Shown one piece after another: positions 17,594-24,231 of a stretch of 64,000 nt of DNA. The DNA comes from Leisingera aquaemixtae. GTDB taxonomy: Bacteria > Pseudomonadota > Alphaproteobacteria > Rhodobacterales > Rhodobacteraceae. The notes under the pieces are model-generated. The model was not told the DNA's origin and searched no databases. It saw only the letters and a list, made by a program, of their open reading frames with translations. Each line of letters starts with the position of its first letter. Position 1 is the stretch's first letter. The translations under genes and the position numbers were made by a program. The stretch lies in assembly GCF_001458395.1 (NCBI RefSeq), contig NZ_CYSR01000022.1, positions 62,001 through 126,000 of the forward strand, in the 5' to 3' direction.

Positions 17594-17619
17594 GGAACCT
17601 TTCAGACCGGCGGCGCGTT
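17594..17619 (+). promoter_or_regulatory. EcfG-type promoter (GGAAC-N17-CGTT)
   Basis: GGAAC at 17594-17598 and CGTT at 17616-17619 with a 17-base spacer match the consensus exactly. Transcription from about 17626 would give a ~40-nt leader for the gene at 17667. Confidence 0.7.
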
Positions 17620-17666: not shown

Positions 17667-18155
17667 ATGACTCATCTGATCCGCACCACCGCCCTCGTTG
17701 CCGCCATGGCCACCGCAGCTGCTGCGGGCTCCCAGGTTTCCGAAATCGACGTGACCGCCGACCTGAGCGCGGTCGAGAACTACGAAGCTGCCAAAGTCTG
17801 GACCAGCCTTGAGACCGACCTGGAAACGGCTCTGGCTGAAAACCTCGTGGGCCAGATCGCGGGTGAAGGTGCCGAAGAGGCAGCGGAAATCCATATCGAA
17901 ATCGACTCTGTCTCCTTGGCAAGCAACTTCGAAAACGCGCTGGGCGTGGGCGAATGGATGCTCAAGGGCGACGTGGACATCGACATGCCCGATGCCTCCA
18001 AGGACATGCGTTATGACCTCACCGTCTCCGCGGATCAGGTCAACGCGTATTATCCCGAAGGCACCGATCCGGCCGTGGTGACCGTTGACAGCGAAATTTT
18101 CTACAACGCCATTATCGACGCTTTTGCCAGCAACGTCGCGTCGAAACTGAAGTAA
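17667..18155 (+). CDS. Periplasmic protein of unknown function, EcfG-controlled
   Basis: 162 residues. Signal peptide MTHLIRTTALVAAMATAAAAG is followed by a soluble acidic domain (EIDVTADLSAVENYEAAKVW, AEIHIEIDSVSLASNFENALG, DMRYDLTVSADQVNAYYPEG). I do not recognise the domain with confidence; beta-rich strands alternate with helices. The ATG at 17667 follows AAAGGAG; an ATG six codons earlier overlaps that site and is less likely. A consensus EcfG promoter lies 48 bp upstream. The small lipoprotein gene 10 bp downstream belongs to the same operon. An envelope role in stress is inferred. Confidence 0.75.
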   Translation: MTHLIRTTALVAAMATAAAAGSQVSEIDVTADLSAVENYEAAKVWTSLETDLETALAENLVGQIAGEGAEEAAEIHIEIDSVSLASNFENALGVGEWMLKGDVDIDMPDASKDMRYDLTVSADQVNAYYPEGTDPAVVTVDSEIFYNAIIDAFASNVASKLK

Positions 18156-18165
18156 GGAGGCCGTC

Positions 18166-18291
18166 ATGCGTATCCTGATCGCACTTCTGGCCCTTGCCGG
18201 ACTGGCGGCCTGCGAAACCACCGAAGGCTTCGGCCGGGACGTTTCGAACCTTGGCGATGAAATCACCGAGGAAGCGCAGGAAGCGCAATAA
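18166..18291 (+). CDS. Entericidin-like small lipoprotein
   Basis: 41 residues. A lipoprotein signal with lipobox LAAC (cysteine 16 in MRILIALLALAGLAAC) is followed by a short tail, ETTEGFGRDVSNLGDEITEEAQEAQ, which resembles the entericidin A/B family. These membrane lipopeptides are stress induced in enterobacteria under RpoS; here the equivalent general-stress control is EcfG. AAGGAGG precedes the ATG and the upstream gene ends 10 bp before, so it shares the EcfG promoter at 17594. The terminator at 18321 closes the unit. Confidence 0.82.
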   Translation: MRILIALLALAGLAACETTEGFGRDVSNLGDEITEEAQEAQ

Positions 18292-18320
18292 GCCAGGCTC
18301 CGCTTCCAGCGTATTCTGAT

Positions 18321-18357
18321 AACCCGGCGGCCTTTGGGCGCGCCGGGTTTTCTTTTA
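18321..18357 (+). terminator. Terminator after the entericidin-like gene
   Basis: A 9-bp stem (AACCCGGCG/CGCCGGGTT at 18321-18329 and 18341-18349) is followed by TTCTTTTATT. Confidence 0.88.
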
Positions 18358-18369
18358 TTCAGGATGAGC

Positions 18370-18394
18370 GGAACTTTTGCGGGGCAGGGGCGTT
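18370..18394 (+). promoter_or_regulatory. EcfG-type promoter with no gene downstream (GGAAC-N16-CGTT)
   Basis: GGAAC at 18370-18374, 16-base spacer, CGTT at 18391-18394: an exact consensus match. It lies just beyond the preceding terminator and points into a stretch that ends about 100 bp later in a strong terminator. Confidence 0.7.
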
Positions 18395-18399
18395 GACCT

Positions 18400-18500
18400 T
18401 GCAGATACCGGTCCGAAGTCCTCCCCCTATCCGGTTTGATCCGGCAGTTTCGGGCTTCCTTCAAGGCACCCGGGTTGTGGCCCCGGGTGCCCTTTTTTAT
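18400..18500 (+). ncRNA. Candidate EcfG-dependent small RNA (~100 nt)
   Basis: A transcript from the promoter at 18370-18394 would start near 18400 and stop at the terminator 18465-18498 (10-bp perfect stem GGCACCCGGG/CCCGGGTGCC, then CTTTTTTAT). No frame with a start codon exists inside. The middle part carries a CCTCCCCC run complementary to ribosome-binding sites, flanked by an ATACCGG/CCGGTTT pairing that could present it in a loop. The coordinates of the 5' end and the function are inferred. Confidence 0.6.
18465..18498 (+). terminator. Strong rho-independent terminator
   Basis: Stem 18465-18474 with 18482-18491, loop TTGTGGC, then C and six T residues. It is oriented with the plus strand, so it ends the candidate small RNA rather than the minus-strand phospholipase gene. 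Confidence 0.88.
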
Positions 18501-18534
18501 GTCTGCTGCCGCAGCCGGCCCAGGGCACCCGGGA

Positions 18535-20019
18535 TCAGACGATGTCCTCCGTGGCGCCCGGCAGCCGCTGCTGCAGCTCCGACATCTTGCCGGGGTCGTG
18601 CGGCACCAGCAGCCCGCGGCGCGCTTCCGGCCGGCGCACCTGATTGCGGCGCACCTCCTTCAGCCACCAGGCCGCGGCATGGGCCGGATCCAGCGCCTCG
18701 GCCGGCAGGTCTTCCTGCCACCAATGCCGCGCCAGGTTATTCCACAGCGTTTCAATTCGCCCGCGCTGGGTGATCCGCAAGGCCGCCTCGGTATCCCAGC
18801 GCATCGACCGTCCGTTGAGGTTGGCCGACCCGACCATGGCAAAATCCCTGTCAGTGACCAGCACCTTGCTGTGCACATAGATGATCGGCGACCCCGACAG
18901 GGTGGCAGGCGCATCGCGGGCGGCCATGCGCCGCTGGACCGGGCTGGCGATGCAGGCCCGGGTGCCAAAGGCCTCCGTCACCTCGTCCAGCGCTTCCGCC
19001 TGCAGCGCCATGCCATAACGCGCATCCAGATCGCGGTTGCCTTCAAACGCGACGTCATCGGGCAGGGCGGGCAGGATCAGGATCAGCGACAGCGCGGGGT
19101 TGCGGCGCGCCGCAGCGGCCAGTCCGCGCGCAATCGGGCTGGAGCGCAGAAACTGGGATTCCAGATAGATCAGGTTCTGCGCCCGCTCAAAGGCGGCCAG
19201 GTGGTCTTCCTCGATCTCCTTTAGCACTGTGCGGGGCGACAAGGCCCAGAACCCGAAACGGCGCGGCGCGGACATCGTGCGCCGGATCAGCTGGCCCTCG
19301 GGCGGCTGCTTGCGCAGGGCGATTTCATCGCGGAACCGCTCCAGATGGCGGGCCGCCTCTTCGGCTTCGGGGCCGCGCAGGATCAGCTGCACATCAGCCC
19401 AGGTCTCATGCGCGGGCAGATCATGCTCCTTGGTGTCATAACGGCGCCGGTTCAGGTCCAGGCCGCCGATGTACAGAACCTCCCGGTCGATCACCGCAAC
19501 CTTCTGGTGGTGCGACACCGGGTACAGCTGCGGCAGCCCGGGGCGGCTGGCCGCAGTCGGCCGCAGCCGCCGGGGCAGCTTGCGCAGTTTGCGCAGCACA
19601 AAGGGCGAAAACGCAAGCCGCGGCAGCAGCCCCGCCCGCGTCGGATGCAGCGCGGCGGCGACCGACAGCAGCGCAGCCTGCTCCGGAGCGAGCCCCGCCA
19701 TGATTTCCTGCGCCTGCGTCAGCGTCTTCTGCGCGGCGGCATGCAGCGGCGCAGCCATCACCGGGTCGAAATCGCTGACCACCAGCTGCACCCGGACCCC
19801 GCGCCGCAGCGCATCGGCAATCAGATCCGCCCAGGTGTCCCCGGTCTCCCGCGCCTCCGGGCTCAGCAGAGGGGTGGCGAAATCGAACAGGCGGAAACTG
19901 GCAAGAAGCTCACGCTGAGCACCCAGCACCGCACGTTCAAACGCGGGCCAGGCCTCTTCGGCAGTAATCAGCACCTCGAATTCCTCGCGGCGCTGTTCAG
20001 GTTGCGGCTCCTGCGGCAT
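18535..20019 (-). CDS. Phospholipase D-superfamily (cardiolipin synthase-like) protein
   Basis: 494 residues. Two HKD half-sites are visible: SHHQKVAVIDREVLYIGG near residue 168 and VHSKVLVTDRDFAMVGSANLNGRSM starting near 382, giving the paired H-x-K-x4-D active site. The family hydrolyses or transfers phosphatidyl groups; which lipid is used cannot be told. No membrane segment or signal peptide is evident. The ATG at 20019 follows CGGGAGAAAC, and the gene begins 23 bp before the histidine-kinase stop, so it is the last gene of the nepR-ecfG-kinase operon and should be stress induced. Confidence 0.85.
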   Translation of the reverse strand: MPQEPQPEQRREEFEVLITAEEAWPAFERAVLGAQRELLASFRLFDFATPLLSPEARETGDTWADLIADALRRGVRVQLVVSDFDPVMAAPLHAAAQKTLTQAQEIMAGLAPEQAALLSVAAALHPTRAGLLPRLAFSPFVLRKLRKLPRRLRPTAASRPGLPQLYPVSHHQKVAVIDREVLYIGGLDLNRRRYDTKEHDLPAHETWADVQLILRGPEAEEAARHLERFRDEIALRKQPPEGQLIRRTMSAPRRFGFWALSPRTVLKEIEEDHLAAFERAQNLIYLESQFLRSSPIARGLAAAARRNPALSLILILPALPDDVAFEGNRDLDARYGMALQAEALDEVTEAFGTRACIASPVQRRMAARDAPATLSGSPIIYVHSKVLVTDRDFAMVGSANLNGRSMRWDTEAALRITQRGRIETLWNNLARHWWQEDLPAEALDPAHAAAWWLKEVRRNQVRRPEARRGLLVPHDPGKMSELQQRLPGATEDIV

Positions 20020-21769
20020 GTTTCTCCCGATCCTGGTTTGGCGGTGCCGGCGGGACAGCCCCGGCCGCCGCGGGGAATCCCAGCCGGTAACTATAGCTGT
20101 CCTCAGTCTCGTACGTGTCAGCCTCGCCTTCAAGCTGGGTGGCAAACGCCAGCATCAGCCGCGCCCCGATGCCGGTCCCGTCGCTGGCATCTTCGGGGGC
20201 CACTACCGGTTTCCCCTTGGTGTTGGTAATCTCAAGCTCCAGCCAGTTTTCCGCGGTTTCGCGCAGGCTGATAAGAATTTCCGGCTTTCCGCCGGCGGGC
20301 ACCCCGGCGTTTTTGACCGCGTTGGTCATCGCCTCCGACACCAGCATCGACAAGGTCACCCCCTGATCCTGGCTCAGCGGCACCTGCACCAGGTCGGTGC
20401 TGATGGTCAGTTCCTGCCCGGCACCTGGGATCATCGCGCCGATTTCGGAAATCAGCGCGTCGATCAGGTCGCGGCTGTCGACCGTGGTGATATCGGGGTT
20501 GGTGTTCAGGCTGCGGTGAATGGTCGCCAGACCGCGCACGCGACGCTGCAGCTGCGCCAGCATCCGCCGCGCCTCCGGCGTCTGCGCGTTGCGGCTCTGC
20601 ATATTCATGATCGAGGCGACAAGCTGCAGGTTGTTCTTGACCCGGTGATGCACCTCGCGCAGCAGGATGGTCTTTTCTTCCAGGTCCAGCTCGCGCCGCC
20701 GCTCCGCTTCGCTGAGGATGGAGACCATCCGGTTGAACGACTGCTGCGCCTCGGCAAATTCACGCGGCGGCGCAACCAGGTCCAATGTAGGGTTTTCGCG
20801 CTCCCCCAGCGCATAGCGGCGCATCGCCGTGCGCAGCGCGCTGAGGTGGCGGATCACCATCCGCTGCAGCCCGAAGATCGCCACAGAAATCCCCGCAAGC
20901 CACATCAGCAGGGGAAAGGCCAGGGTCATCAGCGACACCGGGTTCCGGGCCGCCGACATCGCTTTGTCCACCGGCCAGCTGCCGATCACGGACACTTGCC
21001 CGGGAAGGATCTCGCTGACAGCAAAAAAACGCTCACGGCCAGAGCGGGAATCCTCGAAAAACGTATCGCCGGACAGGGTCACCAAGTCGCGCCGGGGCAC
21101 CGACACGGGCAGGGCCAGCGGGGCCTGCTGCTCGGGGATGCTTGCTGACAGGATTTCCCCCTGCGCATCAACGGTGACATATTGAATGCCGGTGTCCGGC
21201 GCCTCCGTTCCGGCCTGTGCAGCGCTGACCTTATGGGGAATCCCGATGGTCACATAACCCTTCAGGATGCCGTCCCGCAGCACCGGGCTGGTCGCCAGCA
21301 GGAAGCTGCTGCCCCCGCCCACCAAGTCGCGGCCCAAGGCAAAGGACAGGCGGGTCGTCTGCTGGGCTTTAAGGTACATCCATTTTTCGGACAGGTCGCG
21401 TGTCACACCGTCGGAGGCGCATTGAACGCTGCCATCCAGGGAGACGAAAGCGGCAAACGTGAAGGGGTTCGCTCCTTCGGCAAATGCCCTGAGCAGCCGC
21501 GTGCAGCTGTCGGCGTCGTCCGCCACCGGCAGGATTGCAGCAGCCAGACCCTCAGTCGCGCCGCCGGCGCGCTGAAGCAACTCCCGCTCCCTCGCCGCGG
21601 CCCGCTCAGTGCGGTCCAGCAGCGAGGCGTGCGACAGCCGGGTGGCTTCTTCCACCACTGCGTTGGTCTGGTACAGCGCAATCAATCCGAGCGGCAGCAA
21701 CGCAAGCGTCATCAGTGCCGCCAGCCGGACCAAAAGGCTGCCTGCGTGCAGCCGGGGCATTTTGATCAC
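19997..21769 (-). CDS. HisKA_2/HWE-type sensor histidine kinase of the general stress response
   Basis: 590 residues. An N-terminal membrane helix (LAALMTLALLPLGLIALYQT), a periplasmic sensing domain (~40-275), a second helix (VSLMTLAFPLLMWLAGISVAIFGL), a HAMP-like linker, then the phosphoacceptor box LLREVHHRVKNNLQLVASIMNMQSR near residue 372. The ATPase domain has the N-box EAMTNAVKNAG and a G-box near GTGIGARLML. Kinases of this class phosphorylate PhyR in the alphaproteobacterial partner switch (PhyK/PhyP type); some family members act mainly as phosphatases. It overlaps ecfG by 4 bp. The external signal is unknown. Confidence 0.88.
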   Translation of the reverse strand: MIKMPRLHAGSLLVRLAALMTLALLPLGLIALYQTNAVVEEATRLSHASLLDRTERAAARERELLQRAGGATEGLAAAILPVADDADSCTRLLRAFAEGANPFTFAAFVSLDGSVQCASDGVTRDLSEKWMYLKAQQTTRLSFALGRDLVGGGSSFLLATSPVLRDGILKGYVTIGIPHKVSAAQAGTEAPDTGIQYVTVDAQGEILSASIPEQQAPLALPVSVPRRDLVTLSGDTFFEDSRSGRERFFAVSEILPGQVSVIGSWPVDKAMSAARNPVSLMTLAFPLLMWLAGISVAIFGLQRMVIRHLSALRTAMRRYALGERENPTLDLVAPPREFAEAQQSFNRMVSILSEAERRRELDLEEKTILLREVHHRVKNNLQLVASIMNMQSRNAQTPEARRMLAQLQRRVRGLATIHRSLNTNPDITTVDSRDLIDALISEIGAMIPGAGQELTISTDLVQVPLSQDQGVTLSMLVSEAMTNAVKNAGVPAGGKPEILISLRETAENWLELEITNTKGKPVVAPEDASDGTGIGARLMLAFATQLEGEADTYETEDSYSYRLGFPAAAGAVPPAPPNQDREKHAAGAAT

Positions 21770-22323
21770 GCGGCGCCCTGCCGGGCAACGATCCCAGCGG
21801 TGACGGTGTCTGTCAGTTCCATTTTGCTGTCTTCACCCAAGTCCATCAGTTCGCTCAGCCGGGCGCGGGCGCGGTTCACACGGCTTTTGATGGTGCCGGT
21901 CTTCACACCGCACATCTCCGCCGCTTCTTCGTAGGAAAAGCCGCCTGCACCGACCAGCGTCAGTGCTTCGCGCTGTTCGTCGTTCAGCTGAGCAAAGGCC
22001 ACTTGAAAATCGCGCATGTGCAGCCGCCCATCGTGATCGGGTTTCTGCGCAAGAGTGGCAGACAGTGCCCCGTCGGCATCCTCGACCTCGCGTTTGCGCT
22101 TGCGGCGCAGCGAGTAATAGGTGTTGCGCAGAATGGTGAAAAGCCACGCCCGCATGTTGGACCCGTTCTCGAACTTGTCGATGTTCGTCCAGGCCTTCAC
22201 CAGCGTGTCCTGCACCAGATCATCGGCGGTGGCGCCGTTGCGGGTCAGGCTGATCGCAAAGGCGCGCAGGGCGCCCAGGTGGTTGACCAGGTCGTCTCTC
22301 GGGTCCTGTGCGGCGTCAGTCAT
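21766..22323 (-). CDS. ecfG: General stress sigma factor EcfG
   Basis: 185 residues. Region 2 (LTRNGATADDLVQDTLVKAWTNIDKFENGSNMRAWLFTILRN) and region 4 (LNDEQREALTLVGAGGFSYEEAAEMCGVKTGTIKSRVNRAR) have the EcfG/ECF15 sequence. It binds core polymerase and directs it to GGAAC-N16/17-CGTT promoters. It is held by NepR and released when phosphorylated PhyR takes NepR away. It overlaps nepR by 8 bp and the kinase by 4 bp. Many EcfG-type promoters surround it, including one driving its own operon, so positive autoregulation is expected. Confidence 0.95.
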   Translation of the reverse strand: MTDAAQDPRDDLVNHLGALRAFAISLTRNGATADDLVQDTLVKAWTNIDKFENGSNMRAWLFTILRNTYYSLRRKRKREVEDADGALSATLAQKPDHDGRLHMRDFQVAFAQLNDEQREALTLVGAGGFSYEEAAEMCGVKTGTIKSRVNRARARLSELMDLGEDSKMELTDTVTAGIVARQGAA

Positions 22324-22516
22324 CGGAGCGGTCCTTCTCAGAAGGTTCCGGTGCGGCGGGAGTCGACGCGCCTTTTTCCTTCAATTGCTTCAGCAGATCG
22401 GTGAACCGGTCAGGAACGGGCTCATTAGCGATCTCTTCGAAAGCCCGCTTGAGGTTTTCGTCTATGTCGCGGTCGGCCGTTTCCATGCGCGGCCGGGGGG
22501 GGTGTAGCTGTGTCAT
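22316..22516 (-). CDS. nepR: Anti-sigma factor NepR
   Basis: 66 residues with the NepR core DRDIDENLKRAFEEIANEPVPDRFTDLLKQL, the two-helix segment that binds EcfG or the sigma-like domain of PhyR, and flexible ends. It lies directly before ecfG with an 8-bp overlap. The start is uncertain: ATG 22516 or ATG 22525 (three codons longer); neither has a strong ribosome site. Longer frames would begin upstream of the EcfG promoter start point and are excluded. Confidence 0.9.
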   Translation of the reverse strand: MTQLHPPRPRMETADRDIDENLKRAFEEIANEPVPDRFTDLLKQLKEKGASTPAAPEPSEKDRSDD

Positions 22517-22546
22517 GCCATCCATCGGTTTTTTGCGCGGTTTTCT

Positions 22547-22579: not shown

Positions 22580-22608
22580 ATGTGTATTGCAAAAAAGGAC
22601 ATCACAAA

Positions 22609-23424
22609 ATGACCGCTCAATCGGGAGAACAGATCGCCAGCCAGATTGGTGCAAACTTGCCCTATCTGCGCCGCTATGCCCGTGCGCTGACTGGCAGCCA
22701 GAACAGCGGCGACCAATATGCACTGGCTTCGCTGGAGGCGATCCTGGCCGGTGACGCCGATTACGACAGCGTCCTGTCTCCAAAAGTGGCGCTGTTTCGT
22801 GTCTTCCATGCGATCTGGTCCTCCTCCGGCGCACCGTCGGCAGACGAGGATAGCGATGACGGCCTGGCCGCCAAGGCGCAGAAACATCTGCGGCGGCTGA
22901 CACCGAACACCCGCGAGGCGCTGCTGCTGCACACGATCGAGGAGTTCAGCGCAGCTGAAACAGGCACCATCATGGGGGTGGCTGAAAGCGAAGCCTCAGA
23001 GCTGATCTCGATCGCATACGAGGAGATGTCGCGGGCCACAGCGGGCAAGATCATGATTATCGAGGACGAAGCCGTCATTGCCATGGACCTGGAGGCGATC
23101 GTAACAGAGATGGGCCATCAGGTGACCGGCATCGCCCGCACCGAAGCCAGCGCGCTGGACCTGGCCGCCAAGGAAAGCGCCGATCTGATCCTGTCGGATA
23201 TCCAGCTGGCGGACAATTCCAGCGGCATCGACGCTGTCAACGGCATCCTGGCCAAGCACGGCGATTGCCCGGTGATCTTTATCACCGCTTTCCCGGAACG
23301 CCTGCTGACGGGCGAGGGGCCCGAACCTGCCTTCCTGATCTCGAAACCCTATACCGAGGAACAGGTGCGCTCGGCGGTGAGCCAAGCGATGTTCTTCTCC
23401 TCCACCGAAACCCTGAAAAGCTGA
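22609..23424 (+). CDS. phyR: PhyR, anti-anti-sigma response regulator
   Basis: 271 residues. The N-terminal ~140 residues are sigma-factor-like (IGANLPYLRRYARALTGSQNSGDQY, then LTPNTREALLLHTIEEFSAAETGTIMG). The C-terminal receiver begins MIIEDEAVIAMDLEAIVTEMGH, with the phosphoacceptor D197 in LILSDIQLAD and the conserved lysine in LISKPYTEEQV. When phosphorylated, the sigma-like part binds NepR and frees EcfG. It is divergent from nepR-ecfG and shares the overlapping promoter region. ATG 22609 follows AAAGGA; the longer frame would start near the transcription start. A terminator follows. Confidence 0.96.
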   Translation: MTAQSGEQIASQIGANLPYLRRYARALTGSQNSGDQYALASLEAILAGDADYDSVLSPKVALFRVFHAIWSSSGAPSADEDSDDGLAAKAQKHLRRLTPNTREALLLHTIEEFSAAETGTIMGVAESEASELISIAYEEMSRATAGKIMIIEDEAVIAMDLEAIVTEMGHQVTGIARTEASALDLAAKESADLILSDIQLADNSSGIDAVNGILAKHGDCPVIFITAFPERLLTGEGPEPAFLISKPYTEEQVRSAVSQAMFFSSTETLKS

Positions 23425-23605: not shown

Positions 23606-24103
23606 TCAGGACTTGGCGAGGGCCCGCAGCATCCAGGCGGCCTGCTCATGGAAGGCAGAGCGCGCGGTTGCCAGATCTTCGGTCACGATATCGCGGCGGC
23701 TGCTCGCCAGCTCGGCCAGCGCGTGCAGCCGGTGGGCGATCCGCTCGTGGCTGGCGGCCAGGTCTTGCGCCATCCCGCCGGCGGACAGTTCGCCGCTGGC
23801 GTCTTTGATTTTGGAGCGGTTCAGAATCTCATCCATCCGCGACGGTGCCAGATGCCCCAGCGCGCGGATGCGTTCGGCCAGCGTATCGGCGGCAGCGAAC
23901 ATGTTCTCGTACTGCTCTTCAGTGAGCTTGTGCATCGAGTAAAAGGACGGGCCTTCCACGTTCCAGTGATAGGCGTGGGTCTTGAAAACAAGGCGGTAGG
24001 TGTCCGCCAGCACATCGGCCAGGCCGCTGGCGATCGGGCCAGTGTCGCGGACACCGGTTTCGACGGTGTCAGGGCTCGGGGTGGCTGCAAGTGCGTCAGT
24101 CAT
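23606..24103 (-). CDS. dps: Dps-family ferritin-like DNA-protection protein
   Basis: 165 residues, the usual Dps length. The ferroxidase region THAYHWNVEGPSFYSMHKLTEEQYENMFAAADTLAERIRALG carries the histidine, aspartate and glutamates that bind iron between subunits. The dodecamer stores iron and removes peroxide, often while coating DNA. The ATG at 24103 follows GAAGGAG; an ATG five codons upstream overlaps it and lacks a site. It lies in the stress island convergent with phyR, but I found no EcfG-like promoter before it. Confidence 0.93.
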   Translation of the reverse strand: MTDALAATPSPDTVETGVRDTGPIASGLADVLADTYRLVFKTHAYHWNVEGPSFYSMHKLTEEQYENMFAAADTLAERIRALGHLAPSRMDEILNRSKIKDASGELSAGGMAQDLAASHERIAHRLHALAELASSRRDIVTEDLATARSAFHEQAAWMLRALAKS

Positions 24104-24231
24104 AAAGTACTCCTTCATCTCTGTCAGGATTGCGGCGGTTCAACACGAACCACGCGGCAATCAGTGCGGTGCCCGGTCTGCAGGCTGGTGAGCATGCGGC
24201 GGCCAGCAGCGGCCGCCGCCGGCCCCGGCCG

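Follow-up and report, generated by a model that had tools for sequence, protein, structure and literature searches.

A putative EcfG-dependent small RNA of Leisingera that may derive from a deleted PLDc_N gene

The short unit at positions 18370-18498 of the window (the whole 64,000-nucleotide stretch of Leisingera aquaemixtae DNA analysed here) is best explained overall, as judged from sequence comparisons, as a gutted PLDc_N gene that has been retained as a stress-regulated small RNA; we assign a rough probability of 0.45 to this reading. The initial annotation of the region had proposed an EcfG-dependent small RNA with an anti-ribosome-site motif. This interpretation was half right and is partly supported, in that the unit is EcfG-promoted, apparently noncoding, terminator-bounded and contains a C-rich stretch.

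The exact EcfG promoter that had been claimed was read directly as GGAAC-N16-CGTT (Table 1), the motif reported for EcfG1 of R. etli (PMC3892343). The proposed position between two terminators was likewise confirmed. The upstream hairpin was recognized by eye and is absent from the terminator scan listing because its loop is too long; the downstream one, a strong terminator in the same direction about 100 bp on, was found by the scan. The predicted RNA is devoid of ATG, as is all of 18395-18498, in agreement with the claimed absence of a start codon, though TTG and GTG triplets occur; the TTG in frame with the remnant described below is located upstream of the predicted start site, inside the promoter spacer. 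Folding of the predicted RNA of the genome under study (G000) gave a z-score of -2.2, with 6 of 200 shuffles equally stable. The motif CCTCCCCC had been placed in a potential loop, and in the fold prediction it was indeed mostly unpaired, with per-base unpaired probabilities of 0.54-0.97 in G000 and of 0.59-0.93 and 0.94-0.98 in the other two genomes that carry the unit. A search of 18300-18540 against Rfam retrieved no match over the gathering score and 12 sub-threshold matches, none of them convincing. The sole Rfam match over the gathering score in the window was Cis8_sRNA (RF02646, 54225-54352, plus strand, 121 bits), an antisense RNA reported in Ruegeria pomeroyi (PMC4809877).

Table 1 Features of the unit and of the adjoining genes (positions in the window)
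Feature	Position	Strand	Remarks
Entericidin-like gene	18166-18291		precedes the upstream hairpin
Terminator-like hairpin 3' of the entericidin-like gene	18321-18356	+	9-bp stem, 11-nt loop, by eye; hairpin proper 18321-18349, T-rich 18350-18356
EcfG-type promoter GGAAC-N16-CGTT	18370-18394	+	GGAAC 18370-18374, CGTT 18391-18394; read directly
Predicted noncoding RNA, ~97 nt	18402-18498	+	fold, alignment; start inferred 7 nt past the -10 box
Putative in-frame remnant of PLDc_N gene C-terminus, GPKSSPYPV*	18410-18439	+	stop-anchored score, slot alignment
CCTCCCCC	18420-18427	+	identical in 3/3 carriers; predicted mostly unpaired
Hairpin core	18410-18456	+	outer stem 18410-18418/18448-18456, inner stem 18431-18434/18441-18444
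Intrinsic terminator, 10 bp then T6	18465-18498	+	hairpin 18465-18491, T6 18493-18498; terminator scan
PLD-family protein	18535-20025	-	convergent neighbour
HWE/HisKA_2 histidine kinase	19997-21769	-	
EcfG sigma factor	21766-22323	-	
NepR anti-sigma factor	22316-22540	-	
PhyR response regulator	22582-23424	+	divergent

The unit is assigned to the core of the general stress response (GSR) because the PLD, kinase, EcfG, NepR and PhyR genes adjoin it; the distance to ecfG within this gene cluster is ~3.3 kb, and the stop codon of the PLD gene lies 36 bp past the T-run of the unit's terminator. The PLD gene was found in 17 of 21 genus genomes, each time together with the EcfG sigma factor. The remaining four (G005, G009, G010, G020) have no EcfG-grade match either (best 32% identical), and PLD gene, EcfG-grade match and PLDc_N match are all missing together. 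On the other side of phyR, the window copy of a Dps-like ferritin gene (23606-24118, minus strand) is without an exact EcfG site; an EcfG-type site was found at the matching place in 9 of 16 relatives, and six read to the dps-like start. In G006, an EcfG site lies upstream of an apparent second NepR-type gene (L010, from 4051), and a near-identical site was found in L033 and L034 near 1331.

The promoter pattern alone proves little, since its genome-wide count (88 sites versus 69 for the reversed pattern) is barely above background, and the promoter at 18370 therefore has to be supported by its context. Within the window, 5 sites were found versus 0.92 expected, a number reached by 0 of 100 shuffles. 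GGAAC-N16/17-CGTT is located directly upstream of the unit in all three carriers with both boxes (-35 and -10) intact (9/9), and the spacer has diverged and changed in length. Confidence in the promoter is raised by this conservation in three close species together with the context. An EcfG site also precedes nepR-ecfG in 17/17 EcfG-positive loci, and another is found upstream of a gene at 17667. The latter (17667-18155, promoter 17594-17619) encodes 162 amino acids without a Pfam match and has an EcfG promoter ~70 nt upstream in 17/17 EcfG-positive loci; it represents a conserved, unnamed GSR gene.

In 12 of the 17 loci, the slot between the entericidin-like gene and the PLD gene consists of a short spacer with one hairpin only. 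In G008, the slot contains a gene for a 63-aa protein with an exact EcfG promoter 94 nt upstream of its start, and in G019 a similar open frame; both have the strand and neighbours of the unit, and both products match Pfam PLDc_N (PF13396; E values of 3.2e-12 and 3.8e-11, respectively). A PLDc_N copy was present in 17/17 EcfG-positive genomes versus 0/4 others, and 16 of 18 PLDc_N loci have an exact EcfG site ≤100 bp upstream; the slot copy of G019 has none, and L172, the copy of G011, was not readable in register. From these sequences, the EcfG regulon of the genus appears to include PLDc_N genes as a rule. The slot copy of G019 (L035, ~2535-2865) has CGCT as -10 box and ATT where G008 has ATG; this worn copy is perhaps a gene caught in the course of decay. 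A PLDc_N copy outside the slot exists in 16 of the 17 EcfG-positive genomes, so that the slot copy is probably dispensable; given the worn appearance of the G019 copy and the lack of a unit in 12 of 17 loci, the slot may be a place where genes die. Outside the genus, no slot gene was found among 33 PLD loci of named genomes. Six of these loci had a PLDc_N match nearby: one is G008 itself (L192), four have the match on the opposite strand, and in the remaining one, from Actibacterium (L193), the strand is the same but PLD lies 1.9 kb away. The presence of the slot gene in the genus ancestor is therefore no more than likely. The public record that contains L192 is titled Nocardioides marinus DP1N28-1 and carries an alphaproteobacterial locus; it is probably mislabelled or mixed.

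The core of the unit points to this slot gene as its source. In the slot alignment, GGCCCGAAATCCTCCCCCAATCCGGTTTGA of G004 faces the C-terminal codons of the PLDc_N gene. The carrier cores read GPKSSPYPV* (G000), GPRSSPYPV* (G011) and GPKSSPNPV* (G004), and the slot genes end in GPKSTPRQV* (G008) and GPKSSRRAV* (G019). At the DNA level, 20 or 21 of 30 positions are equal between the G000/G004 remnant and the slot genes, compared with 23 of 30 between the slot genes of G008 and G019. In a stop-anchored comparison with three PLDc_N proteins, the remnant ranked first of 2396 stops in the window with a score of 27.7 versus 22.3 for the next. The motif GP[KR][ST][STP]x2-5*, which was composed after the remnant was seen, has a single hit in the window and four in the 192,016 bases examined from 16 related loci, and each hit falls in the slot. 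The unanchored peptide match was weaker, the three scores being reached by 17, 24 and 5 of 600 shuffles. G000 and G019 have the same distance from stop to terminator, and over this region they agree at 21 of 36 bases, AAGGCACCCG included; for G004, 18 of 36 bases agree. The promoter of the unit also aligns with that of G008, so the change would be explained most simply by loss, in the ancestor of the three carriers, of a segment running from the 5' UTR to within the C-terminal codons. The membrane-spanning PLDc_N body and the start codon are absent in 3/3 carriers, and the unit is therefore regarded as a remnant and not as a member of the gene family. Judged by the remnant match together with slot, strand and spacing, descent of the unit from a PLDc_N gene is very probable. 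The CCTCCCCC motif, noted earlier as complementary to ribosome-binding sites, is not supported as a designed anti-ribosome-site seed and was traced instead to what are probably the codons TCC TCC CCC of the lost protein C-terminus. Two further similarities were discarded: that between GTTGACCTTGCAG and GTTGAACTTGCAG at the start of the gene fails in G004 and is not regarded as homology, the promoter alignment giving the better fit; AAGGCACCCGG alone is not rare enough, with 6 window matches (≤1 mismatch) versus 2.6 expected.

We propose that the ancestral gene was EcfG-dependent and encoded a small PLDc_N membrane protein (63 aa in G008). In the ancestor of the three Leisingera-type species, a deletion would, very probably, have removed the greater part of the 5' UTR and of the coding sequence and, with equally high probability, have brought the EcfG promoter next to what remained: nine final codons, the stop, the 3' UTR and the terminator. 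Under stress, phosphorylated PhyR would free EcfG from NepR, as established for the pathway, and EcfG would then, quite likely, transcribe the ~97-nt RNA without a usable start codon. The 3' UTR is predicted to pair with the GPK codons, by which CCUCCCCC would be exposed in an internal loop. The odds are about even that the RNA has been kept as a C-rich, Hfq-assisted small RNA that would pair with G-rich ribosome-site regions, GsrN-like but not GsrN-descended; exaptation of the core to such a role is plausible, as it is more conserved than its flanks and its hairpin has been kept. An hfq gene was found in 3/3 carriers. The complete scenario of a small RNA born by gene deletion is put forward tentatively. 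In it, the promoter of the gene would have conferred stress control, the codons TCC TCC CCC would have turned into an anti-Shine-Dalgarno seed, the hairpin would stem from the former 3' UTR and terminator, and the product would have converged on a GsrN-like regulator at the same kind of locus.

In the 49-nt core (18407-18455), 46 of 49 positions are identical between G000 and G004, versus 79 of 116 ungapped intergenic flank columns (Fisher one-sided P = 1.6e-4; 0.0034 for G000-G011 and 7.1e-6 for G011-G004). For the same two genomes, 656 of 919 fourfold sites in six neighbouring genes are identical (0.714). Because the core was chosen after being seen, the scan P of 0.0085 outweighs the Fisher values; it corresponds to 854 of 100,000 simulated 250-nt stretches of 0.732 identity that hold such a window. 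Conserved structure in relatives had been named as a check of the candidate, and it was found in part: all pairs of the core hairpin are kept in 3/3 carriers, with the outer stem varying by G-U type changes only, but covariation was no better than in shuffles (334 of 500 reach it), a comparison to which three sequences give no power. The core hairpin is not formed when the 3' ends of G008 and G019 are folded, so that it probably appeared together with the deletion or later.

The unit was found in 3 of 21 genus (Leisingera-type) genomes (G000, G011, G004), and a DNA search matched 3 of 41 genomes, the own one included. In a tree of five proteins from the 17 loci (midpoint root, for drawing only), a 100/100 branch separates the carriers from the other loci. 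In the family sample, model R1 matched 10 of 345 genomes, the own one with 115.8 bits and nine others with 23.7-31.1 bits; on inspection, all nine were generic hairpins with no EcfG site just upstream, and no convincing homolog was found with this model in the 344 other family genomes sampled. Matches were obtained in 10 of the 21 genus genomes, with 110.8-119.7 bits for the carriers and ≤32.8 bits for the others; the low matches at the inspected loci L087-L093 were generic, and six further low rows are without a locus. The exact core pattern gave 0 matches in a genome contig collection, which may omit very near records. The conservation among related roseobacters that the initial annotation had looked to is thus not supported: promoter and terminator are kept as a unit in three close species and, convincingly, in none of the 344 other family genomes sampled.

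A target signal was sought in the leaders of possible partner genes. The numbers of GGGGGAGG shortly before ATG were similar, with 47, 41 and 31 in the carriers versus 19-53 in 18 other genus genomes, and the katG leaders of the three carriers have no full match to GGGGGAGG. Out of 119 listed GGGGGAGG-ATG sites, 20 stretches (19 from G000, 1 from G011) were inspected, picked as common to the carriers or resembling start sites; the leader comparison left out 11 of 21 leaders (minus-strand loci). An outer-membrane-type protein (L125) has GGGGGAGG before its start in 3/3 carriers. It was rejected as a co-evolved target, as the non-carriers G019, G001 and G012 have GGGGAGGA, which pairs equally with UCCUCCCC. 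Over 250 aa, the L125 protein (from 940) shows 99% identity between G000 and G004, versus 88% for PLD, which perhaps reflects recent exchange.

The main rival is a transcribed relic: promoter and terminator of the gutted gene would persist and may fire, and the RNA would be functionless and in the process of being lost. This explanation is considered nearly as likely as a working small RNA because most loci have no unit (12 of the 17 EcfG-positive ones) and PLDc_N copies exist elsewhere in 16 of 17 genomes. The decayed appearance of the G019 slot copy, the restriction to three carriers and the absence of a target signal are also consistent with it. Against it stand a core identity above that of fourfold sites and flanks, two intact promoter boxes and hairpin pairing kept in 3/3 carriers. 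A role of the hairpin in cis, by which it would terminate transcription of the convergent PLD-kinase-ecfG-nepR genes or act antisense to them, is improbable: PLD ends only 36 bp off and its readthrough RNA would overlap the unit, but the minus-strand side of the hairpin has no T-run, and where the unit is missing (12 loci), the hairpin that follows the entericidin-like gene is the sole one.

Small RNAs controlled by EcfG at such loci are known. GsrN of Caulobacter crescentus has an EcfG/sigma-T promoter, a length of ~100 nt and a C-rich loop in its 5' part, through which it is thought to act (pairing with this loop is predicted for 32 of its 67 enriched partners), and it activates katG (PMC5869019). 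Relatives were described in Caulobacteraceae and proposed in Rhizobiaceae, predicted homologs being typically located near ecfG-nepR-phyR; the family traits are an EcfG-dependent transcript, an effect of Hfq and processing to a 5' isoform, and the main text of that paper contains 0 words beginning with "Rhodobacter" (PMC5869019). ReC64 of Rhizobium etli is an EcfG-dependent noncoding RNA of 88 nt with a mapped start in the phyR-ecfG region (PMC3892343). The unit resembles GsrN in its EcfG-type promoter, its proximity to ecfG, nepR and phyR and its predicted exposed C-rich loop in the 5' half, and it shares with ReC64 the GGAAC-N16-CGTT motif and the kind of region. Its sequence, in contrast, apparently stems from a PLDc_N gene, no sequence continuity with GsrN was found, and the carrier katG leaders are without a full motif match; transcript, start and EcfG dependence were demonstrated for ReC64 and are predicted for the unit. 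As its origin is apparently different, the unit is not filed as GsrN. Since EcfG-dependent small RNAs at such loci are already represented by GsrN and ReC64 (PMC5869019, PMC3892343), it would not be the new arm of the response that had been envisaged.

That the unit is a true GsrN/ReC64 ortholog, inherited vertically, lost in most Rhodobacterales and unrelated to PLDc_N, would fit its EcfG promoter, GSR-core position, C-rich 5' half and ~100 nt length (PMC5869019, PMC3892343), but it is very unlikely in view of the in-frame C-terminal remnant in the same slot with the same spacing and of the 344 other family genomes without a convincing homolog, GsrN being set apart here indirectly, by the PLDc_N tracing and the R1 searches; common descent is not supported. 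The continued synthesis of a short peptide ending in GPKSSPYPV is least credible of all: the frame is open back to the TTG in 3/3 carriers and 2 of 3 G000-G004 core changes are synonymous in it, but this TTG would be upstream of any EcfG start with no in-frame start after it, and upstream of the core 6/6 changed codons are nonsynonymous between G000 and G004.

Like the small RNAs from mRNA 3' ends (PMC9438474), the proposed gutted PLDc_N unit would consist of the last codons, stop, 3' UTR and terminator of an mRNA; it differs in that the reading frame of the parent has been lost and the 3' end would be driven directly by the promoter of the parent itself. New RNAs from decayed genes have precedents in the small RNAs proposed to derive from degraded bacteriophage genes (PMC5896051) and in NikS, for which an origin in a degenerate toxin-antitoxin system was given as a possibility (PMC8687705), whereas the putative parent of the unit is a chromosomal stress-regulon gene that kept its stress promoter. 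Titles and abstract openings in the open literature, among the matches listed, reported no small RNA that had arisen through loss of the body of a stress-regulon gene. A literature search for EcfG, small RNA and Roseobacter retrieved nothing, and one for EcfG, small RNA and Rhodobacterales retrieved a single paper.

It is rare that the origin of a new bacterial small RNA can be viewed while several of its states coexist. The genus holds an EcfG-driven gene (G008), a decayed-looking copy (G019) and the gutted unit in three species, and twelve loci have none of these. Should the RNA be functional, it would represent a regulatory RNA made by deletion of a protein gene and a case of convergence on C-rich small RNAs at the GSR locus; if it is idle, it would serve as a warning that a promoter, a terminator and a C-rich loop can be the remains of a gene.
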